Source: a virus. Taken from it: a stretch of 26,449 bases of DNA. The translations under genes were made by a program, and so were the position numbers. The DNA lies in IMG/VR virus record IMGVR_UViG_3300009151_005549, positions 1 through 26,449 of that record; one strand, given 5' to 3'. Within the stretch, counting starts at the first letter, position 1. Each line of letters opens with the position of its first letter. The notes beneath the pieces are model-generated. The model had not been told where the DNA came from. It worked only from the letters and a program-made list of their open reading frames with translations, and searched no databases. Shown in pieces: positions 2-22,700 of this stretch.

Positions 2-3000
2 GACTTGACCATTCGAACTCAGTCTAGCGGCAATGCTTTCACAGAAATGTACCAAAGTTCCAACAGTTGGGAAGCCTTTGCCGAAGATGATAACACAGAG
101 GCCAATAGTGCCTATGCTTGGATTCGCGCAGATTTAGCAACAGCAAATACTCCTCGAGTATTCATCAATAACGTAAGAGGCAGTGACGGCCTTGATTCAA
201 CCTGGACCTTTGACGACGCAGGTAAAATAACATTGCCCCATGGTGCTTCACTTAATGATACCGCAGGTGATTCGGTAGCATTTGGTCAGAATGCAGGCGC
301 CAACAGTCAATATCAACACGCTGTGGCCATTGGTCTTAATGCCGGCTATCAATATCAAGGTGAAGATTCTGTTGCAATTGGATTCGACGCTGGATATTAC
401 AATCAAGGTCGTGGCGTGGCCATTGGATACCGAGCCGGCCAAGGAACCAGTCAGTCAACACCAGTCAGCGCAACTTATGGTGGCAGCGGCCCTGCCCACA
501 TTTATGTTTCGGGCACTGGCAATCCTTCATTGGTACTAGATAGTGTCACCAACGTTATAACATATAATCAATATGTTACAGGCAACAATATTCCAGCCAA
601 CACATACGTCACAAACATATACCCTGGTGAAGACCGCATTGAGATCAGCCAGCCACCCACTGCACCACTTGTTGCTGGTGATGCCATAACATTTATTGGA
701 AGCAACATAGGTGTGGCCAGTACCAGCAGTCTAGTGGCAGGGGCAAGAGTGCTCGGAACCAGTATTCCGGTGGGTACATATATAAACAGTATTCTAGGAC
801 CCAACAACATAGATATAAGTCAACGTCCCAGTGCTCCTCTTGTGGATGGGGACTACCTTGAATTTTATATAGGACAAGGTGAGTATGCCACCGCCATTGG
901 CTATGATGCAGGAATCCAGTATCAAGATGTAAATGCGGTGGCAGTTGGACGCAGTGCCGGTACCAATCATCAAGGTGCAAACACAGTGGCCGTTGGTTAC
1001 GTTGCTGGAGCCTATTCACAAGGTGCCAATGCAGTGGCCATTGGTGCATTTGCTGGAACGCAGACTCAGGGCATTAATACTGTGGCCATTGGCTATCACA
1101 CTGGCGGTAACACCCAAGGTGCTCGTGCAGTGGCCATTGGAGAAGATGCTGGCCACGAAATCCAAGGTGCAAATTCTATAGCAATTGGCGCCGAGGCCGG
1201 ACGCTACACACAAGGAACAAATACCTTAGCAATTGGACATTTTGCCGGTCTTCAGACACAAGGCAATTCCGCGGTGGCCATGGGCTGGACTGCTGGTTAT
1301 CAGTACCAAGGTACAGCCGCGGTGTCCGTTGGCGAAGATGCGGGTTATACAACTCAAGGTAATGCCGCAATAGCCATGGGCCTGCAGGCTGGTTATGATA
1401 CACAAGGTGCTAATGCCATAGCCATTGGTTATACTGCTGGATTAAGTGCTCAAGGAAATGTTGCAATAGCCATTGGTCAGAATGCTGGTCAGTCACAACA
1501 AGGCACAGCCGCAGTGGCCATGGGTTGGAATGCCGGTCAAGGTGGCCAAGGCAATGCCGCTATTGCCATTGGTGAAGATGCTGGATTTACCAATCAAGGT
1601 GAATATTCTGTGGCCATCGGTTACCAAGCAGGTTATTACGGCCAAGCCAATAACAGCATTGTATTGAATGCCTCTGGAGACCAAATAAACGGTATAACTG
1701 CCAACTCATTCACAGTCAAACCCGTACGTAATGCCAGCACAGGCAATGTGTTGTACTATGATCAATCGTCGGGTGAGATTACATTTGATGTAGGTGGTGG
1801 TGGTTCGGCCAACATCATCTATAATGGTACCAGCAATGTCTCGATTCCTGTAGCCAATAGCAATGTGACAATCAATGCCAATACATATCAATGGAACTTT
1901 GGTGTAGATGGTAATACCACATTCCCTAATGGTGCAATATTTACTGGGTATGATCTTTATGCTGCCGCCAACAGTTACATAGAACTTGCTGGTGATACTG
2001 GCAATACTTACATGGGTGTCAGCAACACCAGTGCGTTTATCCAAACAGATTGGAGCGGAGCACAATATCAATGGACCTTCGACGCAAACGGTAATTTAAC
2101 AACTCCTGGCGGTTCAGGCGATATCACCCTGACCGGTGGCAACATCACTGGTGCTAATAATGTTAGCACTGGAACTGTCACACTTGTAAACGGTGCAGTG
2201 ATTCGAGACACCGCAAACAATGCAGTGGCATTTGGTAACGCCGCCGGACTAACCTCACAAGGCGGCGGCGCAGTGGCCATTGGATTTACTGCTGGTTATA
2301 ACACACAAGGTCTTGTCGCAGTGGCCATTGGTGATCAAGCCGGACAAACATCACAAGGCACGGCCGCATTGGCAATTGGTATTAATGCTGGTCAAAACTC
2401 ACAAGGCAACATCGCAATAGCAATCGGCGGCGATGCTGGACAAACATCACAAGGCGCTTACTCAGTGGCTATTGGCTATTATGCCGGACACACATCACAA
2501 GGCTCTACCGCATTGGCAATTGGTAATTTTGCTGGTCGCACTTCACAAGGCAACAACTCAATCATATTAAATGCCACTGGAGCCAACTTAGATCAAACAG
2601 TAGCCAACACATTCACTGTGGCACCAGTCCGCAATGATAATTCAAATATTGCCGAAGTCATGTTCTACAACACCACTTCAAAAGAAATCACCTATGGCAA
2701 TGTCATAAGTGTTAGTGGCAATGTCACAGCCGCTAATTTCTTTGGCAACGGCAATACCTTATCTAATGTTGCTACTCAGGTAACAGGATCGTGGGACGTG
2801 CCTGTGGGCAACAGCACCCAGAATTTCACGGTGAATAGCGGCACATATAGCATGTGGGTTGATTGCAATATCACCAATGGTATCTTGGTTTGGAATGCCA
2901 CGGCCACCGTTACCAACACCAACGTGCCTGTTGTGGGTGCTCAGTATGCCTGGGTCTACAACGGTGGCGGAACGCCCATTGACTTTACCAGCATACCCAA

Positions 3001-3139
3001 TCAGTTTACAGGCACTGCCAATGCCATAGTTCGTAGCAATACGGCTCCCAGTTCAACTACCAATAGATTTGACTTTGGTATCAACAATACCAGCGGCGGT
3101 AATGTCACTGTGCGTTACGGTTACACTAAGATAAGTTAA
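2..3139 (+). CDS. Partial tail-fibre protein with YadA-head-like repeats (5' end outside window)
   Basis: The reading frame is open from the left edge, so the start lies upstream; the first possible start inside is a TTG at 5 with no visible ribosome binding site. About 1,045 residues remain. The main body has roughly 27 copies of a 16-residue unit of the form AVAIGxxAGxxxQGxx, in three blocks. This resembles the left-handed beta-roll head repeats of YadA/Hep_Hag trimeric adhesins. A motif W-x-F-x(3)-G-x(3)-x-P occurs three times, near nucleotides 201, 1890 and 2070, and is common in phage fibres. Block 1 is interrupted by a duplicated approximately 55-residue domain (505-873). The C-terminal 150 residues are non-repetitive and beta-rich, as expected of a fibre tip. 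I infer a trimeric host-recognition fibre. A structural role is well supported; the exact fibre identity is not. Confidence 0.85.
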   Translation, partial: DLTIRTQSSGNAFTEMYQSSNSWEAFAEDDNTEANSAYAWIRADLATANTPRVFINNVRGSDGLDSTWTFDDAGKITLPHGASLNDTAGDSVAFGQNAGANSQYQHAVAIGLNAGYQYQGEDSVAIGFDAGYYNQGRGVAIGYRAGQGTSQSTPVSATYGGSGPAHIYVSGTGNPSLVLDSVTNVITYNQYVTGNNIPANTYVTNIYPGEDRIEISQPPTAPLVAGDAITFIGSNIGVASTSSLVAGARVLGTSIPVGTYINSILGPNNIDISQRPSAPLVDGDYLEFYIGQGEYATAIGYDAGIQYQDVNAVAVGRSAGTNHQGANTVAVGYVAGAYSQGANAVAIGAFAGTQTQGINTVAIGYHTGGNTQGARAVAIGEDAGHEIQGANSIAIGAEAGRYTQGTNTLAIGHFAGLQTQGNSAVAMGWTAGYQYQGTAAVSVGEDAGYTTQGNAAIAMGLQAGYDTQGANAIAIGYTAGLSAQGNVAIAIGQNAGQSQQGTAAVAMGWNAGQGGQGNAAIAIGEDAGFTNQGEYSVAIGYQAGYYGQANNSIVLNASGDQINGITANSFTVKPVRNASTGNVLYYDQSSGEITFDVGGGGSANIIYNGTSNVSIPVANSNVTINANTYQWNFGVDGNTTFPNGAIFTGYDLYAAANSYIELAGDTGNTYMGVSNTSAFIQTDWSGAQYQWTFDANGNLTTPGGSGDITLTGGNITGANNVSTGTVTLVNGAVIRDTANNAVAFGNAAGLTSQGGGAVAIGFTAGYNTQGLVAVAIGDQAGQTSQGTAALAIGINAGQNSQGNIAIAIGGDAGQTSQGAYSVAIGYYAGHTSQGSTALAIGNFAGRTSQGNNSIILNATGANLDQTVANTFTVAPVRNDNSNIAEVMFYNTTSKEITYGNVISVSGNVTAANFFGNGNTLSNVATQVTGSWDVPVGNSTQNFTVNSGTYSMWVDCNITNGILVWNATATVTNTNVPVVGAQYAWVYNGGGTPIDFTSIPNQFTGTANAIVRSNTAPSSTTNRFDFGINNTSGGNVTVRYGYTKIS
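265..455 (+). repeat. YadA-head-like 48-bp repeats, block 1 (4 copies)
   Basis: Four 16-residue units, with cores FGQNAG, AIGLNAG, AIGFDAG and AIGYRAG, precede an inserted domain. Nucleotide copies are diverged but the protein core (A-I-G-x-x-A-G) is kept. Confidence 0.8.
505..873 (+). repeat. Duplicated domain inserted in the YadA-like stalk
   Basis: Two related segments of about 55 residues lie back to back. Copy A (about 521-708) contains NNIPANTYVTNIY, then IEISQPPTAPLVAGD. Copy B (about 709-873) contains TSIPVGTYINSIL, then IDISQRPSAPLVDGD. Flanking AIG-x-x-AG repeats resume on both sides, so the pair is an insertion in the repeat array. Function is unknown; a side-branching binding domain would fit. 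Confidence 0.75.
886..1650 (+). repeat. YadA-head-like 48-bp repeats, block 2 (about 16 copies)
   Basis: Sixteen consecutive units carry cores such as AIGYDAG, AVGRSAG, AMGWTAG, SVGEDAG and AIGYQAG, mostly spaced 16 residues apart with a conserved Q-G or Q-A between cores. The block ends at an abrupt switch to a non-repeat segment near 1650. Confidence 0.85.
2209..2550 (+). repeat. YadA-head-like 48-bp repeats, block 3 (7 copies)
   Basis: Seven units have cores AFGNAAG, AIGFTAG, AIGDQAG, AIGINAG, AIGGDAG, AIGYYAG and AIGNFAG. Most are joined by T-S-Q-G, more uniform than in block 2. The entry sequence (IRDTANNAVAFGNAAG) parallels that of block 1 (LNDTAGDSVAFGQNAG), so whole blocks appear to have been duplicated with their caps. 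Confidence 0.8.
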
Positions 3140-3141
3140 AA

Positions 3142-3867
3142 ATGGCCATAACAATCGGACGCGGAATCACCTTAGGCAGGGGCATATCAGTTGCTCCAGT
3201 GACAGTACTTACACCTCCGGTGCTGAGTCTTGACGCTGGCAATCCTGCCAGTTATCCTGGAGCAGGGGGCTACTCTACCTGGACTGACACCATTGGATCA
3301 ATGACGTTTACACTGGTAAACGGTCCCACATACAACAGTGCCAACGGTGGATACATACAGTTTACGCCCAGCGCAGGACAGTATGCAGCCAGCCCCACAA
3401 ACTTGGGCACACTGGCCAACTGGTCAATCGAAGCCTGGCATTATTACGATGGTACCAATACTGCCAGTGGACCCAACATATTCACAGAATACCCATACGG
3501 CGGTGGCACTATCAATCTTGGCCTGGGTTCTACTAATAATGCGTCTGATTTACAGACCTGGTGGTATGGTGGAGGATTCCAAACCACCAATCCATATACA
3601 CTAACACCAGGAAACTGGTATCAGATTGTGGGCACATTTGATGGCACCACTCTCAACCTGTATGTAAACAACACCCTGGTCGAAACTACCAATAGGCCAC
3701 CAGGTGGGGCGGCCAACCCTGGAATTGGATATGGTTTAATGACACGTTGGGATCCAGGCGGGTTCTGGGGCGGCGGATTGGCCATTGTTAATGTCTACAA
3801 TCTTGCTTTAAGCGACGCAGAAGTTACTCAAAACTTCAACCACTACCGCTCAAGATTTGGTCTTTAA
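3142..3867 (+). CDS. LamG/concanavalin A-like virion or adhesin protein
   Basis: 241 residues, starting 2 nt after the previous stop with no good ribosome binding site, so translation is probably coupled to the fibre gene. The N-terminus (AITIGRGITLGRGISV) looks like a short phage virion leader. Residues of about 25-240 have the pattern of a LamG-type jelly roll: LSLDAGNPASY, then WTD near the start, W-S-I-E-A-W in the middle, N-W-Y-Q-I-V-G-T-F-D-G-T-x-L-N-L-Y-V-N-N, and a final I-V-N-V-Y-N-x-A-L-S-D-A-E-V. That last element is typical of LamG_3-like domains. Such domains usually bind carbohydrate, so a glycan-binding role next to a fibre is likely. The 3' end overlaps the convergent methyltransferase gene by 18 bp, leaving no room for a terminator between them. 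Confidence 0.82.
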   Translation: MAITIGRGITLGRGISVAPVTVLTPPVLSLDAGNPASYPGAGGYSTWTDTIGSMTFTLVNGPTYNSANGGYIQFTPSAGQYAASPTNLGTLANWSIEAWHYYDGTNTASGPNIFTEYPYGGGTINLGLGSTNNASDLQTWWYGGGFQTTNPYTLTPGNWYQIVGTFDGTTLNLYVNNTLVETTNRPPGGAANPGIGYGLMTRWDPGGFWGGGLAIVNVYNLALSDAEVTQNFNHYRSRFGL

Positions 3868-4497
3868 CTGACGCACCAAGGTCAAGCCATTTTCAAACGG
3901 CAAGTCCATGACCTGTAGGTCAGATCGCTGTTTTAATTCTGTGATATAGTCACACACACTAAACTCATACTTGCGATCCGCTCCATAGATTGGCGAATGA
4001 AAGCGAGTTATACTGTCGTGAAATAGTGCAATAGACTGCAAACTCATTTTGTGTTCAAAGCTGGTATAATCAAATCGAGCTTGTGCTTGTGTGTGTAGTC
4101 CATCCACAAACAACATGTCTATGTTGTCCAGCTCCTGATATGTTGCTGTAGTAACAAACTCCTGTGTGGTCATTCTGTAGTGTTGAATATTAGGAACTGC
4201 ATGATCCTCAAACCATGTCTGAACTTGATCAGCATCTTGCCAGTGAGAATCAACTAGGCCAGGGTCAATGAACGTCACGGATCCTGTATCCAGATTATCT
4301 TGCATGCCACGAGCTATCAGCATGGGCACAAAGCCACGCCAAGAGCCAATGCACACCACCCGTTTGGGTCGATACACCCGGGCCAGAGAGTAGTATATCC
4401 AGCCCAGCCCCAGATTTGAATCTTCAGCAGTTTGTCCATGCCCCATTTCCAGCATGTCAGGGTTTGATAAAAGTTTTTCAAGCCATTGTTTGTTCAC
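3850..4497 (-). CDS. Class I SAM-dependent methyltransferase-like protein
   Basis: 215 residues from a GTG start; this gene overlaps the 3' end of the upstream ATP-grasp gene by 20 nt, which supports coupled translation. Visible Rossmann methyltransferase features are motif I-like VVCIGSWRG (residues 47-55), a following acidic strand FIDPG (76-80), and D-M-L-F-V-D-G-L-H-T (127-136) followed by ALFHDS (157-162). That last pattern is typical of Methyltransf_24-type enzymes. Motif I has S-W-R-G where E-x-G-x-G is usual, so the SAM site is a variant. The substrate is unknown. As last gene of a cassette with two glycosyltransferases and a ligase, it may methylate a sugar or peptide product; that is inference. 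An internal ATG (residue 15) is a less likely start. Confidence 0.75.
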   Translation of the reverse strand: MNKQWLEKLLSNPDMLEMGHGQTAEDSNLGLGWIYYSLARVYRPKRVVCIGSWRGFVPMLIARGMQDNLDTGSVTFIDPGLVDSHWQDADQVQTWFEDHAVPNIQHYRMTTQEFVTTATYQELDNIDMLFVDGLHTQAQARFDYTSFEHKMSLQSIALFHDSITRFHSPIYGADRKYEFSVCDYITELKQRSDLQVMDLPFENGLTLVRQLKTKS

Positions 4498-6232
4498 GAT
4501 TTACTTTCAAAGGTTGTATATTTTTACTGTGTGCTTGGACAAGGAACACAACATCATCGGGATTTTCTATTAGAATATTGTCCCAGCGGTCCAAAGGCAG
4601 GCCATGTGCTGCCACGTCTGCCTTGGTCATAACACACACAGCCGATGTGACTTCTGGGTTGAAGATCAAACTTTTTGCGGCCGCATAACTATCAGGCCAG
4701 CTGGCAGTAATTTGTAGTCCGTTTAACCATAGTCCTTGATCCGTGGCTAATCCGTCGGCAGCATACGCAGCCGCTAATTCCATGGCCATGCCGACAGGTA
4801 AAGGATCATCAACTATGGCCAAGTGAACTGGAATACGCGATCCCAACCGGAACAGATCCAACATCACAGGCTCAATGCCATGGTTGTAGCCAATCTGCGG
4901 TATGGCATTGACTTCGCAAATAAGAGCACCAGTCTCCAACCAAGAACGAGTAATATCTGTAGTGATAAAATCAACTCCGGCTATGTCCAGGCCCACAATC
5001 CTGGCAGCTCGCAAACACACAGCCGTGTTGTCAGGGTGAATGATAGCACGATCAATGGCTCGAGTTTGTCCACCAGCACTGGCATTGTTTCTGCGTCTCA
5101 GTTGTATGGTCTGGCCCTCGGTCAACACGGTGTCTAACTCAACCCCTTGTTGTTTCAGCATGCCCAACACTTCTTCATCTATGTCATGACGTGCCCCATT
5201 GGTGGCTATGATCACAAATGGTTCATCATTGTCGGGTCGTTTGATGCGTCTGGATTCGTTTTCGTAATTGTCAATCAGGTATTTGACTGTGTTCATGCCA
5301 TCTCCAGCAATGGTAGCTGGAAGTTTACGAGTCACAGTTATGGCTTGATCTTTGTAGATGGTAAATCTATGTCCCGTTCCTTCAACATGACGCTCAACTA
5401 GAAATTCTGAAACTAATTTTGTCACTTCATTGTAGGCTAGTCGCAGGGTTGATTTATCAGCAATACCAGCATAGACGCCTTGTCCGTTGTCACGATCATA
5501 AGGCTTGATTACCACAGGATAGCCCAACTGATCTGCTGCTGCCAGGGTTTCTTGCCAGGTTTTGACTGTGACATGCTCGGCACCCGGCAAGCCTGCCAAA
5601 CGCAATAGAGTGGCTGTGGTCCTTTTATTTTTAGCAAATATCAGTCCCTGTGCTGATGTAGCCGGAGTCATGGTGCTACTGAGTCGTTGGCTGTAGCATC
5701 CAGTGCCAAATATGTGTGTTCCGGCCCAGAGTCTGTGTGCAGGTATGTCATGCTTCATGGCCATGGTAGCCATAAATCCTTGATTCTGTCCAGGCTCACC
5801 GTGAGGATCTAACTGTTGACTATAGTCATCAATCAAGGATTCAATATTGTACTGACCTTGGGCAAATTGTTCCAACACCTGTTCAACAAAACGGAAACTG
5901 ATTGTGGTTGCCACAGCCGAGGCCAGGCTCATGATCACGGTAAACACTTGATCTTGTTGTTGTATAACATGATAACGATTGGATACTACAATACGATTCA
6001 TGCCTTGAACAAAACAACTCAAGTTCAAAGCACGATGCAGCAGTTGCAGTTGTGGATCATTAGAATTGGCAACAGCAGTAAATCCCAGGGCTTGATCCAG
6101 GGCCTGGTCTGCCTGTGCAAAATCAAAGTTCTCAGGAATATCAATCTTGACAGATAGCACAACAGTGGCACCCGGTACCCCAAATGCTGAACCCAGGCGT
6201 GTTTTATGAACTTGTGCCAACTCAAATATCAC
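4478..6232 (-). CDS. Cyanophycin synthetase-like ATP-grasp ligase with a short, P-loop-less Mur-ligase-like tail
   Basis: 584 residues from a GTG that overlaps the upstream stop as GTGA. Residues of about 1-200 match the CphA N-terminal plan, ending near residue 200 in a T-S-A-x(5)-A-x-x-K run before the ATP-grasp. Residues 201-450 are a clear ATP-grasp of CphA type: YPVVIKPYDRDNGQG (238-252), VER (279-281), HR (288-289), GDG (310-312), RRRNNASAGG (379-388), GLDIAGVD (414-421) and EVNAIP (440-445). In CphA this domain adds aspartate to the growing chain using ATP. The tail (467-584) still resembles the Mur-ligase half (GLATDQGLWLNG, then LDRWD) but is far shorter and has VDDPLPVGM where GTNGKTT is expected. 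Usual CphA is about 870 residues. Cyanobacterial CphA2 also lost its second ATP site, so an amino-acid or dipeptide ligase is plausible. Product unknown. Confidence 0.85.
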   Translation of the reverse strand: MIFELAQVHKTRLGSAFGVPGATVVLSVKIDIPENFDFAQADQALDQALGFTAVANSNDPQLQLLHRALNLSCFVQGMNRIVVSNRYHVIQQQDQVFTVIMSLASAVATTISFRFVEQVLEQFAQGQYNIESLIDDYSQQLDPHGEPGQNQGFMATMAMKHDIPAHRLWAGTHIFGTGCYSQRLSSTMTPATSAQGLIFAKNKRTTATLLRLAGLPGAEHVTVKTWQETLAAADQLGYPVVIKPYDRDNGQGVYAGIADKSTLRLAYNEVTKLVSEFLVERHVEGTGHRFTIYKDQAITVTRKLPATIAGDGMNTVKYLIDNYENESRRIKRPDNDEPFVIIATNGARHDIDEEVLGMLKQQGVELDTVLTEGQTIQLRRRNNASAGGQTRAIDRAIIHPDNTAVCLRAARIVGLDIAGVDFITTDITRSWLETGALICEVNAIPQIGYNHGIEPVMLDLFRLGSRIPVHLAIVDDPLPVGMAMELAAAYAADGLATDQGLWLNGLQITASWPDSYAAAKSLIFNPEVTSAVCVMTKADVAAHGLPLDRWDNILIENPDDVVFLVQAHSKNIQPLKVNREQTMA

Positions 6233-7155
6233 TGGTCACCATCTTCTTTTCTGCTGGGAAAATATTCAGCGGCGTAAGATTCGATATCAGGTCTGGGTCT
6301 GGACCAGACCCAAGCACCATTGGCCGCTATAGTTAGGTCCAAGGCAGGATCAAAACCCAACTGTTGTAATCGTTCATGACGAGACCAGTAGCCACGATTG
6401 GGTATTTCTCCGTGCCATAGATGATAGATAGTGTGTGGAATATAACCAACATTGCCTTGAACTGCTTGATTGAATTGACGTGCCCACTGATTATAGTGTT
6501 GTAAATGTTGGTTGGTGATAGGCACAGTTTCAGGAGCAGTCGAGAAACGCCCATATGCAGCATGCAGGATCATGCGATCAGCTGCACCCATTATCATGGC
6601 ATCATAGAATTTTAATTCATCAACAACATCTCTACGAATACTCCAGGCCAAGCCGGGGCTAACTTCTCTGCGGGTGTGTCCCCATCCATAAGGTGTTCTG
6701 CGTTCTAGTGAATCTATGCCCTGCTGTTCTATTTCGTAGATCAATCCACGGCCTGCATGTTGGTAACTGTCGGGGATCACATGTTCGCCAGGTTCAAGAT
6801 CTACAAAACGATTGAACAATTGAACCATGACCTTATCTTGTAGTTGACGTTCAGCATCAGCCACCCAACCAGGATCATCAAACAGCACATCACAATCAAT
6901 CCAGGCCACAGCGTCACAGTCTGCGGGCAAGTGTTCAAGTGCTATGTTTAATAATCGTTCTTTTTGCCAGACCATAGCACCACCAGATATCTGTACAAGA
7001 CAATCTGCATCGGATTTATTCAGTTCAAAATTGCCGTTGAAACTCAGCTCCACTGTGATCAAAGGCACAGCCAAATGATTCTTAAACACTCGATATTTGG
7101 CAAGATGATTTTGAAATACAGCAGGGTTAAAATAAGAAGTTATTGCATATAACAT
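6229..7155 (-). CDS. GT-A-type glycosyltransferase-like protein
   Basis: 308 residues, ATG start, ending in a GTGA overlap with the ligase gene. A DxD-like site sits in VAWIDCDVLFDDP (83-95), preceded by a conserved-looking W-Q-K-E-R-L-L-N (63-70), as in nucleotide-sugar-binding GT-A enzymes. Later segments S-P-G-L-A-W-S-I-R-R-D-V (166-177), M-I-M-G-A-A-D-R-M (187-195) and HLWHG (245-249) followed by R-G-Y-W-S-R-H match the acceptor-side pattern of GT-A enzymes of galactosyltransferase type. There is no signal peptide or membrane segment, so a cytoplasmic enzyme is expected. Donor and acceptor cannot be read from sequence. A Shine-Dalgarno is not evident, although a TAAATA core lies 10-15 nt upstream. 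Confidence 0.78.
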   Translation of the reverse strand: MLYAITSYFNPAVFQNHLAKYRVFKNHLAVPLITVELSFNGNFELNKSDADCLVQISGGAMVWQKERLLNIALEHLPADCDAVAWIDCDVLFDDPGWVADAERQLQDKVMVQLFNRFVDLEPGEHVIPDSYQHAGRGLIYEIEQQGIDSLERRTPYGWGHTRREVSPGLAWSIRRDVVDELKFYDAMIMGAADRMILHAAYGRFSTAPETVPITNQHLQHYNQWARQFNQAVQGNVGYIPHTIYHLWHGEIPNRGYWSRHERLQQLGFDPALDLTIAANGAWVWSRPRPDIESYAAEYFPSRKEDGDQ

Positions 7156-7164
7156 AGGTTAAAA

Positions 7165-7170
7165 TATTTA
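7165..7170 (-). promoter_or_regulatory. Possible late-promoter core before the GT-A gene
   Basis: The minus strand reads GTAAATATT here, containing the TAAATA core of T4-type late promoters, but only about 10 nt from the start codon. The 71-bp gap between the two glycosyltransferase genes shows nothing else. Weak evidence; it may be chance in an AT-rich spacer. Confidence 0.25.
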
Positions 7171-7226
7171 CTCTGCATTGTTTATAATCACTCTTTTGCC
7201 ATTCACTGGCTCTCTGTCAGCGGTCT

Positions 7227-8378
7227 TTAAATTTTGAACCAGCTCAAGAACTTGTGCATCTTGTCAACCACACTGTCCCAGTCACCCACTTGGGGTTGAC
7301 GAAATAATCTAGCACTGGGATACCAAGGCGAATCTTCACGCTTGAGCAACCAACGCCAGCAGTTGCCATACGCATTTAACGGAATCCACACAGGCCGCCC
7401 TAGAGCACCGGCCATGTGTGCATTGGCAGTGTCCACAGAAATCACCAGGTCAAGATGATGCATGAGTCCTGCTGTGTCTGAAAAGTCTCTTATGGTGCCC
7501 GGATAACACTCGCCGCCTGCAGCCGTGATCACAGCAGTTTCTTCGTCGGTGGCATCCATCTGCAGGTTGATCCACTGATGTTCAGGATTGCGACGAATTA
7601 GATCAGCCATCTTTTCCACAGGCATGCTTTTGTGTTTGTGTATCCAGGAATCCTTGCGGCCTGACCAACATACACCAATTCTCATGCGAGTTTTAGCTCC
7701 TAGTCGATTGGCCCAGATCTGTGCTTTTGCAGGGTCGGCTGCAATGTACTGCAACTGGTGTGCAATATTTTCCAGAGTCATACCAATAACTTTAGGAATG
7801 TCCATCATGGCAATCCAGTAATCAAACTCACCAAAATCTTCTCCGGGTTCGTAGATACCCACAATGATTCCGGCTGGTTGCGGAAACAAGGGCTTAACAC
7901 TGGGATTCAACAGTAATTTTATTTTCACACCGGTTGAGTGTAAATTGGCAGTGAATCTTATGAATTGTATTTGGTCACCAAGTCCTTGCTCACCTATGAT
8001 CAACAGTGTTTTATCTCGAAGATCTTGACCTGTCCATTCGGGTTCAGCCAGTTTGGGTTTGGTACCGTCAAGATGTTCAAATCTCCACCGTGCTTCGTAC
8101 AAGGGCCATCCTCGAGCATAATCACCGTTGAGCAGGTAGGCCACTGCAAGATTGAACTCAGAAGTGACATCAGCAGGATTGATATCATGTGCTGCATGTA
8201 AAAACGGAATAGCACGAGCAGGATAGCCCATTTCTCTCAGTACATTACCGTAGTTGTTGAATGCTGCACTGTGATTGAAATCTTCAGCAAACACCTGTGC
8301 GTAACAGGCCAGGGCCTGTTCAGGATTGTTCTCACTGCGATGTTGATTGCCTTGGTCAATAAGTTCTTGATGGTTCAT
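7227..8378 (-). CDS. TPR-containing GT9-like glycosyltransferase
   Basis: I chose the ATG at 8378 (383 residues). The 40 extra residues possible from 8498 look non-homologous and would run into the leader of the divergent gene. Residues 5-100 hold about three tetratricopeptide repeats (for example AAFNNYGNVLREMGYPARAI at 38-57). Residues 122-383 resemble the heptosyltransferase-like GT-B proteins often fused to TPRs in bacteria: GEQGLGDQIQFIRF (129-142), RIGVCWSG (233-240), SVDTANAHMAGALG (314-327), then W-R-W (341-343), SPWYPSARLFRQ (350-361) and GDW (365-367). The H-M-A-G-A-L-G segment is the nucleotide-sugar-proximal loop in that family. It is the first gene of the - strand cassette and is likely cytoplasmic. 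No clear Shine-Dalgarno precedes it. Substrate unknown. Confidence 0.82.
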   Translation of the reverse strand: MNHQELIDQGNQHRSENNPEQALACYAQVFAEDFNHSAAFNNYGNVLREMGYPARAIPFLHAAHDINPADVTSEFNLAVAYLLNGDYARGWPLYEARWRFEHLDGTKPKLAEPEWTGQDLRDKTLLIIGEQGLGDQIQFIRFTANLHSTGVKIKLLLNPSVKPLFPQPAGIIVGIYEPGEDFGEFDYWIAMMDIPKVIGMTLENIAHQLQYIAADPAKAQIWANRLGAKTRMRIGVCWSGRKDSWIHKHKSMPVEKMADLIRRNPEHQWINLQMDATDEETAVITAAGGECYPGTIRDFSDTAGLMHHLDLVISVDTANAHMAGALGRPVWIPLNAYGNCWRWLLKREDSPWYPSARLFRQPQVGDWDSVVDKMHKFLSWFKI

Positions 8379-8426
8379 GAGATATTTAAGAATAACACAG
8401 CCCTGAGCAAAATAAACCGAGTTTGC

Positions 8427-8434
8427 TAAATACA
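8427..8434 (+). promoter_or_regulatory. Putative T4-type late promoter (GCTAAATACA)
   Basis: TAAATACA matches the last six bases of the T4 late consensus TATAAATA plus two further bases shared with the sites at 9976 and 19721. It lies about 90 nt upstream of the start at 8525, giving a leader with two potential hairpins. Confidence 0.5.
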
Positions 8435-8438
8435 AGTC

Positions 8439-8478
8439 AACGCAATACTGCGTTTTATGCGGTGATTTACCCTGCCGC
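8439..8478 (+). other. Two potential stem-loops in the 5' leader of the gene at 8525
   Basis: The first is AACGCA (8439-8444), loop ATAC, TGCGTT (8449-8454), a perfect 6-bp stem followed by TT. The second pairs GCGG (8459-8462) with CCGC (8475-8478) and may extend by a wobble and an A-T pair. They lie just after the putative late start and may stabilise the leader. The first resembles a weak terminator, but its T-run is short. Confidence 0.35.
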
Positions 8479-8509
8479 GTAGCGAATGGAACTCGCATCG
8501 GACTTCTTT

Positions 8510-9355: not shown

Positions 9356-9943
9356 ATGAGCGTAGCATTTGTATTGGGCAACGGTCAAAGCCGATCAATT
9401 ATTGATTTGACCAGAATTCGACCTTTGGGACCAATTTATGGTTGCAACGGACTGTACAGGGATTTTGAGCCCGATTGTCTTGTGGCCACAGATAGGCCCA
9501 TTGCAGAACACATACAACGTTCGGGTTATTCTAAAAAAAATAGATTTTATACCCGTAGACCCTTGCCAGATCTAGGAGCACACCAGGTTCCAAAAAAGTA
9601 TCATGGCAACAGTTCGGGCCCTATTGCGTGTGCAATAGCTGCATCCGACGGACACCGACGAATATACCTACTGGGCTACGATATGGCTGGCACAGCAGCC
9701 AGTAAATTCAACAATGTTTATGCAGGAACAGAGTTTTACAAGTCTGCAGATGCTGCCCCTACCTTTACAGGCAACTGGATCAAACAATTATCCACAGTTG
9801 CTAGGGACTTTGCCCGAACGGAATTTGTTCGTGTGTGCGGTACAACCACTGCTGAAATTACCGACTTGAAAAACATAGATAATTTCTCACACATTGATCT
9901 CAAAGCCTTTGTACACAGGATAAACACCGGCGAAAACCTGTAA
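9356..9943 (+). CDS. Rossmann-like protein resembling DUF115/GT42-type proteins
   Basis: 195 residues; the ATG is preceded by GGGAGG at a 7-nt spacing. An N-terminal beta strand and glycine turn (FVLGNGQSR, 5-13) are followed by I-Y-G-C-N-G-L-Y-R-D-F-E-P-D (27-40), A-T-D (44-46), N-S-S-G-P-I-A-C-A-I-A-A (85-96) and R-I-Y-L-L-G-Y-D-M (102-110). This order (GNG-x-S, a C-N turn, an S-G helix, then I-Y-L-x-G-x-D) recalls DUF115/MptE-like proteins and GT42 sialyltransferases such as Campylobacter Cst. The region after the last motif has no obvious equivalent of the Cst catalytic histidine, so enzymatic activity is uncertain. It sits between fibre genes; a nucleotide-sugar or glycan-related role is inference. 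Confidence 0.6.
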   Translation: MSVAFVLGNGQSRSIIDLTRIRPLGPIYGCNGLYRDFEPDCLVATDRPIAEHIQRSGYSKKNRFYTRRPLPDLGAHQVPKKYHGNSSGPIACAIAASDGHRRIYLLGYDMAGTAASKFNNVYAGTEFYKSADAAPTFTGNWIKQLSTVARDFARTEFVRVCGTTTAEITDLKNIDNFSHIDLKAFVHRINTGENL

Positions 9944-9999: not shown

Positions 10000-12900
10000 A
10001 TGACCCAATATGTTATTGACATTGGCGCAGTGCCCGACGACGGGCAGGGCGATCCGTTACGCACAGCGTTTGCATTTACCAACGACAACTTCAATCAGAT
10101 TTTTGAATCTGGACCTGTTGGCTCAAATGTAAAAATTGCCAACAATACCATCACCACCACGGTGATAAACAGCAACCTGATACTGAGTCCTTCGGGTATT
10201 GGTAAAATTCAGGTCAACAACACGCTGCTGCCACGAATTGACAATGTGTATGATCTGGGCAGCTTATCTCAAAGATTCAACACTATCTATGTGGGTTCCG
10301 GCGGGCTAGACATCACAGGCAGCATTGTTGTCAGCGGTAATATCACTGCTGACTATTTCATCGGTAACGGGTCAGCACTCACAGGCATTGTGGCCACCAC
10401 TGGTAGCAGGGTCGAAAACGGCAACAGCAATATCAACATACCTGCAGCAGGTTCCAATATATTTGTCACAGTCAACGGAACTGGCAATATTGTGGTATTT
10501 TCCAATACCGGAGCCTATGTTGCAGGCGAAGTAAGTGCAACTGGCAATATCACGGGTAATTATATCCTGGGCAACGGTGCATTGCTGACAGGTATCAATG
10601 CCAACTACAGCAATGCCAATGTAGCTGCCTACTTGCCCACATACACAGGTAATCTGGTCAGCTTGACAGGTCCGGTCACAACCACTTCTAACGTCACTGG
10701 TGGGAATATAAGAACCAGTGGGCAAATCACAGCCACAGGCAACATCACTGGTGGCAACGTAGACACCAACAGAGTCAATGCTGCAAACATCACTGTTGGT
10801 GGACCTGTCTCTGCAAGTGGTAACGTCACGGGTAATTATATTCTGGGTAACGGTGCGTTACTAACGGGTATCAATGCCAACTACAGCAATGCCAATGTTG
10901 CTGCCTACTTGCCAACCTATACCGGTAACCTGGTCAGTTTAACAGGACCAGTAACAACCACTGCCAATGTCACTGGTGCCAACATTCGCACAAGCGGACA
11001 AATAACCGCCACAGGAAATGTCACAGCAGGTAATGTAGACACTGGCAGAGTCAATGCTGCTACGATTACTGCCAGTGGAAATGTCAGCGGTGCATACTTC
11101 CTTGGTGATGGTAGTCAATTAACAAATTTACCTGCAGGAAATTACAGCAATGCTAATGTTGCTGCATATCTTCCGACCTATACCGGTAACCTAGTTAGTC
11201 TTGCTGGTCCAGTAACAACCACGTCTAATATCACCGGTGCCAACATTCGCACAACAGGGCAAATAACCGCCACAGGCAATATCACCGCAGGCAATGTAGA
11301 TACCAGTAGAGTCAACGCTGCCACGGTCACTGTCAGCGGCCCAGTTAGTGCAAGTGGCAATGTCACTGGTGCATACTTCTTGGGTGACGGTAGTCAGCTA
11401 ACCAATTTACCTGCGGGTAATTACAGCAATGCCAATGTTGCTGCATACCTTCCAACATATACTGGCAATCTAGTCAGCTTAACAGGACCAGTAACAACCA
11501 CAGCCAACATCACTGGCGGCAATTTGTTAACCAGTGGTCAAGCCACAGTCACTGGCAATATCACAGCAGGCAATGTAGACGCCACCAAAGTTAATGCTGT
11601 TACTGTTGCAGCCAGCGGATCGATCAGTGCGGTTGGCAACATCACCGGCAACAATCTAATTGGTGTCACTGTAACAGGAACCACTGTTACTGCCACTGCC
11701 AATGTGGTTGGCGGCAATATCACTACAGCTGGACAAATTTCATCTACAGGAAACATAACTGGTGGTAATCTCAGTGTTCCTGGTGGAACAGTCTCAAGTC
11801 TCACAGTTAGTGCTGCAGGAAATATTCGTGGCGGAAATCTTGTTACACCAGGATTTATCACAGCCACAGGCAACATCACTGGTGGCAACGTAGACACTGG
11901 CAATATTCATGCTGGTAATATAAATGTTGATAGTATTGTAAGTGCCCAAGGCAATGTGTACGGCAACACCTTTGTTGGCAATGGCTTATCGGTCTCTGGA
12001 AATGTTTCAGCAGGCAATATTTCTGTATCTGGAACTTTTGGTGCCACAACTCTCAGCGCATCAGGCAATGTGATTGGTGGAAACTTACTGACCACTGGCA
12101 AAGTTAGTGCGGTCGGCAATGTGTCAGGCAACTATTTTGTTGGTAACGGTGCGTTACTAACAGGCATCACAGTAACAGCTGGATCGTCACTGTTGAATGG
12201 CAATAGTAATGTTGTTGTGGGTGCCAATGGCAATGTCACAGTTGGTGTAAGTGGAACTAGTAATATAGCACAGTTTGCCAACACTGGTGCATATGTCACT
12301 GGTGTCATAAGTGCCACAGGCAACATAGCAGGCAGTTATTTGCTTGGTAACGGTGCGTTGATCACAGGATTGCCAGCAGGATACAGCAATGCTGATGTGG
12401 CAGCTTACCTGCCAACATATTCGGGCAACTTACCAAATTTAACTGGACTGGTATCAACCACAGGCAATGTTAGTGGCAATTACTTTATTGGTAATGGTAG
12501 TTTATTAACCGGTGTAACAGCATCCGGGGTCAATGCCAACGCACTAACGGGCAACACCCTGAGTTCAAATGTATTAAACTCAAGTCTAACATCGGTTGGA
12601 ACTCTAAGCAATCTGAGCGTAACCGGAAACACAAACAGTGGTAATTTATCAACTGGTGGAACAATAAGTGCAACAGGCAACATAACCGGCAATTATATCT
12701 TGGGTAACGGTGCATCGCTAACTGGTGTGATTACCAGTGTGGCCAACATCAACCTTGGAACATCCAACGTTACTGTGGTTAGTTCTGGAGGTAATGTCAC
12801 AGTTGGCATAGGCGGAACAAGCAATGTAGCAGTATTTTCTACCACAGGTGAATATGTTACTGGCCTAATTAGTGCAACAGGTAATATCACTGGCAGCAAC

Positions 12901-15900
12901 TTACTCACTGCTGGATTGATATCCGCAACTGCTAATGTTACTGCTGGTAACATTAACACAGCGGGATTGATATCAGCAACCGGCAATGTCACTGGAAATT
13001 ACTTTATTGGTAACGGTAGTCAACTAACAGGTGTTGCAGCATCTAGTGTAAATGCCAATGCATTGGTAGGCAATACACTAAGTTCAAACGTACTATATTC
13101 AAGTTTAACACAGGTTGGAACATTATCCAGCTTGACTGTAACAGGAAACACAACCAGTGGTAATTTATTAACTGGTGGGCTGATATCAGCAACCGGTAAT
13201 GTTATCGGCGGCAACATTGTTACGTCTGGCTCTGGAGGAAATATCACTGGGGCTAATGTAATTAGTGCCACAACATTTAGTGCTGCTGCTAATATTTTGG
13301 GCGGTAATGTTCTAACCAATGGCTTAATATCAGCAACTGGCAATGCCACCGTTGGTAATTTAAGCACAGCAGGATTGATTACCGCAACTGGTAATATTTC
13401 TGGCAACAATATTTTTGCCACAGGACTTGCAAGTGTCACAGGCAATGTGATTGCTGGCAATGTCAATACTGGTGCTATTAGACCTGTCAGCGGGCCGTTG
13501 ACAATTACCACTGCGTCGGGCAATTTGAATCTGCAACCGGCTGGCAATATTGTGTTGGCCAACACCTATATCAACAGTGTGGCCTATCCAGCACAGGATA
13601 CCGATGCTGCAACAAAATTATATGTTGACAACATGGTGTCAACTGCTATAGCGTACCACACACCTGTATATGCAGCTACCACTACTACCCTGGCCACAAC
13701 CACAGGCGGAACAATCACATATGCTCAGCCCAACGGAGTAGCCAATGGTGTTGGGGCAACACTGACCACCACTGGCTCATTCAATCTAGTTGATACCAGC
13801 AATGTTCAAACACTGGGCACACGTATCCTGGTCAAAGATCAAGCCAATGCGGTACAAAACGGCATTTACACCTGGGCCAATGCCACAGCAATTGTTCGAG
13901 CCACTGATGCAGACGAATATGGTCCAGATAGTTCGCAACAGATAAGTCTAAACGATTATTTCTTTACCAGCACCGGTAATGTCAATCTTGGTGCTGCCTT
14001 CATAGTCAATTCACCGCTGGGCACTATTACTTTTGGCACAAGCAACATTACTTTTGCTCTGTTTAGTCAAACAACTGCCTACACTGCCAATGTTGACGCT
14101 GGACTAAGTCTAACTGGTACTGTATTCTCAGCCAAAGTTGATCTGAATACCACAGCATTTGATGCTGGTGGAAATATCATTGTCAAAGCAGGTGCTAATC
14201 TTACCACACCCAATATTGGTGCTGCCACAGGCACAAGTCTAAGTTTAATAGGCAACATCAACAGTGGAAATGTCAACACCAGCGGCTTGATTTCAGCAAC
14301 TGGTAACATTACAAGTGCTGCCAATGTCACCGGCGGTAACATCCTAACTGGTGGAACAATAAGTGCAACCGGCAACATCACTGCTGGCTATTTTTCTGGC
14401 AACGGTGCTGGACTTTCTAATGTCATTGCGTCCGGCGGTGTGGGCAATACCATCACACTAGGCACACCCACAGACGGTAGCCTAACAGCCAATGTTGCTT
14501 ATCCTGGATGGACCACAGGTACTTTTGTTACAGATGGCCTAGACGATCTGAATCAAGTGTCATTGAATATTGCTAACAGTACCTATGTGGGCAATGCCTA
14601 TATCACTGCCAACGTTTATTCTGGACCCAGCCCGTTGTCAGTAGCATTCACTGGTCGTTATATTGGTAATCCCAATAGTTTCTTGTGGCAGTTTGGGGAT
14701 GGCACAGCCAACGCTACCACAGCCAATGCGGTTCATACCTTTAGCAATGCACTAGGCGGAACTTTTACTGTGAACTTCACCGCCTTCAATACCAATGGAA
14801 CCTACAATGGCAATGCAGCCAATGGCGCCAAAGGATCAACTAGTACAGCATCAATTTCAAACATTGTGTTGTACACACCAAGTCCAATACCGTCATTTAC
14901 TCTGAGCAGCAACAGTTTCAACACAGGCAACATTATTACCATAACCAATACCAGCCAGTATGTGGTCTGGTATGATCTGAGTTTTGGAGATGGTACTGCT
15001 AACTTTACTGCTGGTCCAGGATTAGGCAACACATCGTTTACCAATGTAACTCATCAGTACAATTCTGTGTCGTCCAACGCAGACAGCTTGTACAGTGCAG
15101 TTCTAAGTGGCACCAGCAACACCGCAGGTCCGGGCAACGTTACTGTGGTATCATCGGCCAGCAACGTAAAAGTTTATGCTCCTCAAACCGGCAATGTGTT
15201 TGTCACTGCCAATCGGGCCAACGTGATCAACGGCCTAGGTGGTATAAGTTTCCGCAACGACTCAAATGGCACGCCAGGCAACACAGCCAGTTTTGGCGCA
15301 CAACAATTGTACAACTTCAACTACGGTGACGGCAATATCAGCAATGTCAATGTGGGCACAGGTATTGCAGGTAACCCAGCAGCAGCCAATGTCACAAACA
15401 CATTTGTGTTGAGTGCTGCCAATCAAGCTGGCAACGTTTATCAACAGTTCACAGCCAATTTGTTCCTGTACACTGGTTACAGCAGCAGCCCAGCCCGGAG
15501 TGGTAACATCACAATCACAATAGAACCTCAAGTGCGTGGCAACTACATTGGAACCACAGCCAACGTTGTAACCGATGCCACTGCCAACACAGGCAATGCC
15601 AGAGTGGGATATCTCTATACTGATTACAATACTTCCAACCGATCAACATTCACATTCCAGAACACCAGTCAGAACAGTAATCTGGCCAACTGGTCCTGGG
15701 GTGATAGCACATTCAGCAATGGTGTGTCAAATGTGGGCAACACACTGCACACCTATAACAGCACTGGTGCGTTCACAGTGGCACTCACGGCCAACGGCAC
15801 ACCCAACGGTATAACCAGTACTGCTCAAAGCAACACAATCTCCAATGTTGGTTATATTTTTATTGCTGCCAATCCTACAGCACCTACTAATCTTAGTGGA

Positions 15901-19755: not shown

Positions 19756-22700
19756 ATGGCATTTCCAACAACACCCACAAACGGTCAAGTAACCGTAGTT
19801 AATCAGGTATCATACCAGTATTCCAGCGCAACCAACAGCTGGACTAGAATTTTATCCACAGCAAATGTTATTACTGCCAATACCATTGCAGTAAATGGCA
19901 ACTTGACTGTGGGTGTGGACATTGTTGCCAGCGGCAACATCACAGGTAATTATTACTTTGGTAACGGTAGTCAATTAACTGGGGTTACAGCGTCAAGTGC
20001 AGGTTTCCCAATCACAGCAGGCAACAGCAATATTGCAGCAGCAGCCAATAGCAATATTGCAATCACGGTTACAGGAACTCCTAATGTTGCTGTGTTTGCC
20101 CCAACTGGTGAATATGTTACAGGTGTTGTTAGTGCAAGCGGTACAGTAACAGGTGGCAATTTGGCCACTGGCGGAACAGCAAGTGCAGCAGGCACCGTAA
20201 CAGGTGGCAATTTGGCCACAGGTGGAACAGCGTCGGCTACAGGTACAGTAACAGGTGGCAATTTGGCCACAGGTGGAACAGCTTCGGCTACAGGTACAGT
20301 AACAGGTGGCAATTTGGCCACAGGCGGAACAGCTTCGGCTGCTGGCACAATAACCGGTGGAAACATTGCCACAGGCGGTACTGCAAGTGCTACCGGCAAT
20401 GTCACAGGTGGCAACCTAGTAACCAGCGGAGTAACACAAACAGGCAATTTTAGTATTACTGGCAATGTAATTGGTAATTTATTGCCCTCTGCTAATGCAA
20501 CATACAGTCTTGGCGGCCCAGGACAACTTTGGAAAAACTTGTATCTAAGCGGTAACACACTGGTTCTTGGTGATCAATCACTCAGCTCAAATGCCACTGC
20601 AATTTTTACAGCCAATAATTTTAGTTCCAACAATCTAGCTGCAACTAATGCGGTAGCAGCAGGAACCACTGTTAGTGCAGTGGGCAACGTAATTGGTGGC
20701 AACGTAACAACAGTAGGCCAAGTAAGTGCAACTGGTACCATAACAGGTGGCAATATTGCCACAGGTGGTACCGCAAGTGCTACAGGCAACATCACAGGTG
20801 GCAATGTACTCACAGGTGGGTTAATCAGTGCCACTGGAACAATAACTGGTGTTGACACAATAACAGGTGGAAATATTGCCACAGGTGGCACAGCATCAGC
20901 AACAGGCAATATCACTGGCGGCAATGTACTCACAGGTGGACTGATCAGTGCTACATCAACCATCACAAGTGCTGCCACAATAACAGGTGGCAACTTGGCC
21001 ACAGGTGGCACTGCAAGTGCAACCGGAACAATAACCGGCGGCAATTTGGCCACAGGCGGAACTGCGTCAGCAGCAGGAACTGTAACAGGTGGAAACATTG
21101 CTACAGGCGGTACCGCAAGTGCCACAGGCAATATCACAGGTGGCAATGTCTTAACAGCCGGTCAAGTAAGTGCAACCGGCAACGTAACTGGTAACTATAT
21201 CCTGGGTAACGGTGCGTCCTTGACCGGAGTCATCACAAGTGTGGCCAACATCAACAATGGCACATCAAATGTGACTATTGCTGCTGCCAACGCCAACGTT
21301 ACAGTCAGTGTTAATGGCACATCAAATGTTGCGGTATTTGCTACAACAGGTGAATATGTTACAGGTGTTGTGAGTGCAAGCGGTACAGTAACTGGTGGAA
21401 ACATTGCCACAGGCGGTACATCAAGTGCAACAGGTACAGTAACCGGCGGCAATTTGCTAACTGGTGGGTTGATCAGTGCCACTGGAACAATAACTGGTGT
21501 TGACACAATAACAGGTGGCAACTTGGCCACAGGCGGTACTACGTCAGCAACAGGTAACATAACTGGTGGTAATTTGTTAACAGGTGGCCTAATCAGTGCC
21601 ACATCAACTATCACAAGTGCTGCTACCGTAACTGGTGGCAACTTGGCCACTGGCGGAACAGCTTCGGCTGCAGGAACAATAACAGGTGGAAATATTGCCA
21701 CAGGTGGTACCGCAAGTGCCACAGGCAATGTCACAGGTGGCAATGTACTCACAGGTGGGTTAATCAGTGCTACTGGCAATATTACTGGTGGTAATATTGC
21801 CACTACTGGCACATTTGGCGCAGCAAGTCTGAGTGCATCAGGTAATGTCACTGGTGGTAATTTGCTAACAGGTGGTTTGATAAGTGCTACTTCAACTATC
21901 ACAAGTGCTGCCACAATAACAGGTGGCAATTTGGCCACAGGCGGCACAGCGTCAGCGACAGGAACAATTACTGGTGGAAACATTGCCACAGGCGGCACAG
22001 CGTCAGCGACAGGAACAATTACTGGTGGAAACATTGCCACAGGCGGTACTGCAAGTGCAGCAGGTAACATAACTGGTGGTAATTTGTTGACAGGTGGACT
22101 GATCAGTTCAACTGGCAGCATCACAACAACATCTAACATTTCAGGCGGCAACTTGTTGACCTCTGGACTGGTATCAGTAACTGGCAATGTTATTGCTGGC
22201 AATGTTAATACCAGCACTATCAGACCCACAAGTGGTGCATTGACAATCAGCACAGCATCAGGTAATTTGAACTTGAATCCTGCTGGCAATATTGTATTGT
22301 CTGCAAATACCTGGATCAACAATGTAAATTATCCGGCTCAAGCATCTGATGCAGCCACAAAAGAATATGTTGACAATCTTGCTACAACAGCTATTGCTTA
22401 TCACCAACCAGTTTTTGCAGCAACAACTACTACCCTGGCTACAACCACAGGTGGTACAGTAACTTACAACAATGGTACGTCTGGGGTTGGTGCCACATTG
22501 ACCACAACTGGCTCATTCAACTTGATCGATACTGCCAATGTTCAAACAGTTGGCACACGTATTCTGGTCAAAGATCAGGCCAATGCTGTGCAAAACGGTG
22601 TGTATGTTTACACCAGTAGTACAGTAATTACTCGTTCAACAGACGCTGACACATACGGGCCAGACAGTACAACTGATTTGAGTATCAATGATTATTTCTT

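Follow-up and report, generated by a model that had tools for sequence, protein, structure and literature searches.

A cyanophycin-synthetase-like ATP-grasp ligase without Mur P-loop in the fibre region of T4-like phages

Background

The closest described relatives of the phage protein reported here are the cyanophycin synthetases CphA1 and CphA2. CphA1 has an N domain, an ATP-grasp (G) domain and a full Mur-ligase-like (M) domain with a functional P-loop (GTNGKTT), and a Cx19HxxEH active site is found in the N domain of 83% of CphA1 (PMC9262961). The roles of its active-site residues, given in TeCphA1 numbering, assign H267 to the acyl-phosphate, E215 to the Arg of cyanophycin and R458 to the alpha-carboxylate of the incoming Asp (PMC9427784). 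CphA2, a cyanobacterial beta-Asp-Arg polymerase, is defined by an N domain, a G domain and an M domain without P-loop and lid (PMC9427784). For phages, the ATP-grasp enzymes described in the literature consulted here comprise RNA ligases and protein modifiers of the R2K type (PMC4431377, PMC7824862). Animals provide a precedent for an ATP-grasp ligase with a predicted role in attaching amino acids to polymers of the surface (PMC2824669).

Here, we analyzed a stretch of 26,449 nucleotides from a viral record (IMGVR_UViG_3300009151_005549), hereafter the window. A first-pass annotation, made from the sequence alone, had proposed that it encodes, in a phage fibre region, a CphA-like ligase for which no phage counterpart was known. 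Our literature search likewise found no paper describing a phage CphA-like ligase.

Results and discussion

The window encodes a CphA-family protein

The features of the locus are listed in Table 1. The ligase ORF is found on the minus strand only, the plus strand being full of stops across the same interval, and all the motifs quoted in the first-pass annotation are present in its product.

Table 1. Features of the ligase locus (positions in the window)
Feature	Position	Strand	Details and evidence
Fibre/spike-like protein with AIGxxAG repeats	5..3139	+	tail spike phrog_4636, E=4e-8
SAM methyltransferase (Methyltransf_24)	3850..4497	-	215 aa; E=1e-13
CphA-like ATP-grasp ligase	4478..6232	-	584 aa; GTG start, stop included
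Mur-ligase M-domain remnant, no P-loop	4508..4858	-	residues 459-575; alignment, profile comparison, AF2 (well folded)
Lost P-loop site (VDDPLPVGM)	4787..4813	-	residues 474-482; alignment, motif scan
G (ATP-grasp) domain	4859..5797	-	residues 146-458; alignment, residue roles from PMC9427784
N domain, CphA-type fold	5798..6232	-	residues 1-145; alignment, AF2, motif scan
Putative GT-A-like glycosyltransferase	6229..7155	-	308 aa; WIDCDVLF (DxD-like motif); weak PHROG match, E=0.14
TPR + GT9-like protein	7227..8498	-	domain match

This protein belongs to the cyanophycin synthetase family of ATP-grasp proteins. Residues 92-551 match the NCBIfam cyanophycin synthetase model PRK14016 with E=3e-74, a score that lies far under the curated cut-off of this model. 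The best PDB match by sequence is CphA1 (7lgn, E=1e-44), with CphA2 also detected (7ta5, 1e-29; 8fxh, 8e-29). AF2 predicted the structure with confidence (pLDDT 90.8 for the whole protein and about 95 for the Mur remnant), and Foldseek matched the model to CphA1 (E=4e-43) and to CphA2 (7ta5, TM 0.77 by both lengths). These results uphold the CphA-type N region and ATP-grasp domain initially recognized, and neither a second ATP site nor a better-matching unrelated ATP-grasp family was found. Phage RimK/R2K and other ATP-grasp ligases are also phage-borne members of the superfamily, but they lack both the CphA-type N domain and the Mur remnant and reached only marginal sequence scores.

The phage ligase shares with CphA1 the family, the N and G domains, the start of the M domain and the ATP/Mg residues. 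Its overall organization is that of CphA2 (7ta5, 8fxh/8fxi), with an N domain, an ATP-grasp domain and a Mur domain devoid of P-loop and lid, and a fold match over the whole length, CphA2 being 636 aa long versus 584 aa for the phage ligase.

The Mur domain is truncated and under selection

In the alignment, residues 473-482 of the ligase stand opposite the P-loop of CphA1 (TGTNGKTT). The first ~100 residues of the M domain of CphA1 have colinear counterparts in residues 460-565, and ~300 aa of this domain (the rest of the core and the lid) are absent. In profile-profile comparisons, residues 449-584 alone matched the beginning of this M domain in the expected register, with P=7e-7 when only phage sequences were used and P=4e-11 when three cellular relatives were added. 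Furthermore, in an hmmsearch with the family profile, the match to CphA1 of solved structure extends into its M domain. The proposal of a Mur half deprived of its P-loop is thus confirmed: the ligase has neither the functional GTNGKTT loop nor the full M domain of CphA1.

dN is far below dS in the N, G and Mur-remnant regions of phage ligases. For instance, dN/dS between L003 and L005 (two viral relatives, see below) is 0.25 for the N domain, 0.06 for the G domain, which is the most conserved part of the protein, and 0.15 for the Mur remnant. Since this ratio is well below 1 in the remnant, the latter is maintained; it would have no catalytic role and would probably serve in packing or oligomerization.

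ATP-binding residues are kept and cyanophycin-reading residues are changed

The G domain is complete, including the Lys pair and the acidic/Asn Mg ligands expected for an ATP-grasp enzyme. Residues conserved between TeCphA1 (numbering of PMC9427784) and the phage ligase are K220 (K203), K261 (K243), D431 (D421), E450 (E440), R309 (R289), N394 (N383) and S396 (S385); N442 of the ligase is the conserved Mg-ligand Asn. The carboxylate-binding Arg of CphA1 is kept, and R323 is replaced by Lys. By contrast, three residues that read cyanophycin or Asp in CphA1 are changed: E215 to I198 (Ile or Leu across phage forms), H267 to N249 and R458 to G448; in addition, G456 is changed to Q446. These data indicate that ATP use is likely and that cyanophycin is an unlikely substrate. 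However, R458 and H267 are also lost in CphA2, so that these two changes alone would still allow a CphA2-like substrate. Phage forms differ from CphA2 by Asn instead of Lys at the H267 site (Gln in the nearest kin), Ile/Leu instead of Asp/Glu at site 215 and Gln instead of Gly456. Since the catalytic H267 is replaced by Asn, ligase activity is not guaranteed. The HxxEH motif of the primer-generating metallopeptidase was detected by motif scan in 16 of the 20 CphA1 checked and in none of the phage forms.

The ligase is carried by T4-like phages

Besides the window, whose source record is viral, homologs were found on further viral contigs. One of them (L002) is near-identical (99.99% over 14.5 kb) and seven more loci (L003-L009) encode a ligase with 51-53% identity to that of the window, which answers the call for a search of other phages. 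Scanning viral and genome contigs with a single sequence returned only the near-identical contig or nothing, and the relatives were recovered by adding CphA1 segments. Four matches in phage isolates were weak, covered 32-40% of the ligase query and were set aside. In a database of predicted viral structures, the matches listed under cyanophycin names comprised nothing beyond an N-domain fragment from a caudovirus and a protein of Pandoravirus labelled 'incomplete domain'.

Several relatives carry, by inspection, T4-type head genes (gp21/22/23-like). The capsid protein of L003 is a Gp23 (E=8e-98), with 64-66% identity to its counterparts in T4-like jumbo phages, among them Pseudomonas phage PA5oct and Vibrio phage 2.275.O. 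The carriers of the ligase are T4-like, jumbo-type, large water-borne phages. A second, separate phage lineage (L010-L012) harbors a 565-aa CphA-like version, which in L010 (9398-12429) is followed by a small ORF and then by a sulfotransferase gene.

The ligase is the central gene of a conserved cassette

Unlike that of CphA2, the phage ligase gene is set in a glycosyltransferase (GT)-methyltransferase cassette. In the window, the stop of the putative GT gene and the start of the ligase gene share 4 nt, and the end of the ligase gene shares 20 nt with the start of the methyltransferase gene. The putative GT gene lies directly before the ligase gene, with overlapping ends, in the window and in all eight other viral contigs (8/8). 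The methyltransferase gene comes after it wherever the viral contig extends that far and, conversely, the ligase is present on 7/7 contigs with that methyltransferase. Searches from the GT and the methyltransferase retrieved this set of contigs again and added two others, namely L149, a contig that stops shortly beyond the GT gene, and L157, with a distant GT. No ligase gene accompanies the distant GT homologs of L157 and Xanthomonas phage XaC1. The TPR/GT9 gene is missing or on the opposite strand in some relatives, and is therefore separable from the trio.

A homolog of the fibre protein adjoins the trio in the relatives too, in agreement with the fibre region initially proposed. In L003-L009, trio and fibre gene are codirectional, and they run against each other in the window, where the trio and the TPR/GT9 gene (3850-8498) are on the minus strand, flanked by plus-strand fibre genes. 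This difference suggests an inversion. The assertion of glycosyltransferase neighbours holds in part: there is a link to glycan-type enzymes, but the 308-aa protein is only a putative GT, with no Pfam match, no significant match to a glycosyltransferase and a poor structure model (pLDDT 58.7). No member of the S51 (cyanophycinase) family was found in seven phage records, some of which may be fragments.

Elsewhere in the window, a CST-I/sialyltransferase-like protein (9356-9943; PHROG 4603, E=1e-6) is encoded between fibre genes and kept in relatives, and two giant proteins of 2509 and 2190 aa (10000-17529 and 19756-26328) are rich in TGNITGGN-type repeats, the first with a PKD domain.

The nearest relatives are alphaproteobacterial

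In our tree, the phage clade is sister (support 95/83) to P-loop-less alphaproteobacterial paralogs (L015, L101 and L102). CphA2 forms a separate clade, and a grouping of phage forms with CphA2 is rejected (AU p=0.035). The exclusion from the CphA2 clade has moderate rather than strong support from these sequences because of long branches. The affinity to CphA2 considered in the first-pass annotation is therefore one of shape, not of nearest kinship. The phage ligase and these short paralogs (L015, L101, L102 and others) match over the full length, have lost the P-loop and share the Gln at the Gly456 site and GT neighbours. However, the paralogs are cellular, have other partner genes and show only about 32% identity to the phage ligase.

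Some alphaproteobacterial genomes encode several short CphA-like paralogs; for instance, the MAG containing L015 has four strong matches, L015 included. P-loop decay is graded among short forms (GTSGKTT in L112, GTRGATG in L115, no recognizable loop in most), and a motif scan found the motif missing in 15 of 16. The phage gene probably came from such a P-loop-less paralog of cyanophycin synthetase. Moreover, L010 is placed apart from the main phage clade, with other short forms (L098 and L113), so that short CphA-like genes probably entered phages at least twice. In the region 5185-10666 of L098 (G003 contig 40), a P-loop-less CphA-like gene is divergent from the adjacent genes for a contractile injection system (Pvc16_N, tail sheath, gp19-type tube), which may reflect either chance or another tie of such ligases to phage-tail-like particles.

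No described function was found in the literature for these short paralogs. Their genes neighbour those of (i) GT2 and a phosphodiesterase (L120, L099), (ii) a phosphodiesterase and GT1 (L122), (iii) a methyltransferase (L123, L124, L127), (iv) a sulfotransferase (L125) or (v) GT25, in a polysaccharide-type cluster (L129). In L097 (5266-8124), the CphA-like ATP-grasp part is fused to a GT2-type Glyco_tranf_2_4 domain in a single 952-aa protein. Since no homology was detectable between the phage GT and methyltransferase and the neighbours of cellular kin, the parallel lies in the class of function and not in descent from a shared operon.

For comparison, 15 CphA1 genes taken as a control had 59 neighbours, among which were 10 S51 proteins, 9 Mur ligases and 6 amidohydrolases, as expected for cyanophycin metabolism. 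Among the 25 commonest families, those listed for 60 neighbours of 15 short forms included 5 methyltransferases and no S51, Mur ligase or amidohydrolase; this contrast could be partly taxonomic, the short forms being all alphaproteobacterial and the CphA1 set coming from several phyla. Likewise, the phage ligase differs from CphA1 by the lack of a cyanophycinase neighbour, as well as of the P-loop, most of the M domain and the HxxEH site.

Proposed function

Our best reading, still a tentative one, is that the protein is an active single-site carboxylate-amine ligase, whose gene is the second of three in a cassette that decorates a surface glycoconjugate. Judging from the family, it is very probably catalytically active. 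A ligase is favoured by the conservation of the ATP/Mg ligands and of the carboxylate Arg, by the confident AF2 model and by purifying selection. The G domain would phosphorylate a carboxylate with ATP and then couple it to an amine. From the context in phages and cells, a surface glycoconjugate is rather probably the target. Surface decoration is favoured because the cassette is fixed in phages and the kin lie beside GT, methyltransferase or sulfotransferase genes. On the other hand, genes for GTs and methyltransferases abound in the fibre regions of phages, as they do in genomes generally.

The putative GT, the ligase and the methyltransferase might together build or decorate the glycoconjugate with an amino acid or a short peptide. 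The amino-acid or peptide ligation first suggested for this enzyme is consistent with this context and is kept as a proposal. The likeliest carrier would be the neighbouring fibre, either itself or through a glycan that it bears; from gene position, the virion fibre is possibly the carrier. A broader scenario, more doubtful, is that phages own a three-enzyme pathway (sugar transfer, amino-acid or peptide ligation by a repurposed G domain, methylation) producing peptidyl-glycan tail fibres, as a branch of a wider, undescribed alphaproteobacterial family of P-loop-less CphA taken up at least twice by phages.

It is unlikely that the same ligase chemistry would instead act on the host surface (LPS or capsule glycan), blocking superinfection or altering receptors. 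Phage-borne genes altering O-antigens are well known, and L129 lies in a polysaccharide-type cluster beside GT25; however, the cassette is located within the structural/fibre region, beside a conserved fibre gene in all relatives, and no membrane flippase was seen in it. Slightly more unlikely is the ligation of amino acids to a virion or host protein, in a RimK/R2K-like manner and with no glycan. Other phage ATP-grasp ligases are predicted protein modifiers (PMC4431377, PMC7824862), but the constant partners here are a putative GT and a methyltransferase, and cellular kin have GT or sulfotransferase neighbours or a GT fusion. A functional CphA2-like enzyme, polymerizing beta-Asp-Arg or making cyanophycin from host pools, would agree with the three-part architecture and the whole-length likeness (TM 0.77) but is highly improbable given the position outside the CphA2 clade, the changed equivalents of E215, H267 and R458, the lack of cyanophycinase family members in the phage records and kin that are not beside cyanophycin genes. 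The least probable is a protein devoid of catalysis, retained as a structural scaffold or to bind its partner enzymes: it would account for the replaced His267 and the missing second site, but all ATP/Mg residues are kept despite divergence between the window and the other phage forms at nearly half of all positions, and conservation is highest in the G domain.

Significance

Our analysis indicates that loss of the Mur site from the CphA scaffold was not confined to the CphA2 lineage of cyanobacteria, and that viruses use the result. The label 'cyanophycin synthetase' is probably wrong for short homologs. Moreover, ATP-grasp ligases are linked in phages to glycan-type enzymes of the fibre region, which makes the decoration of virions with amino acids directly testable.
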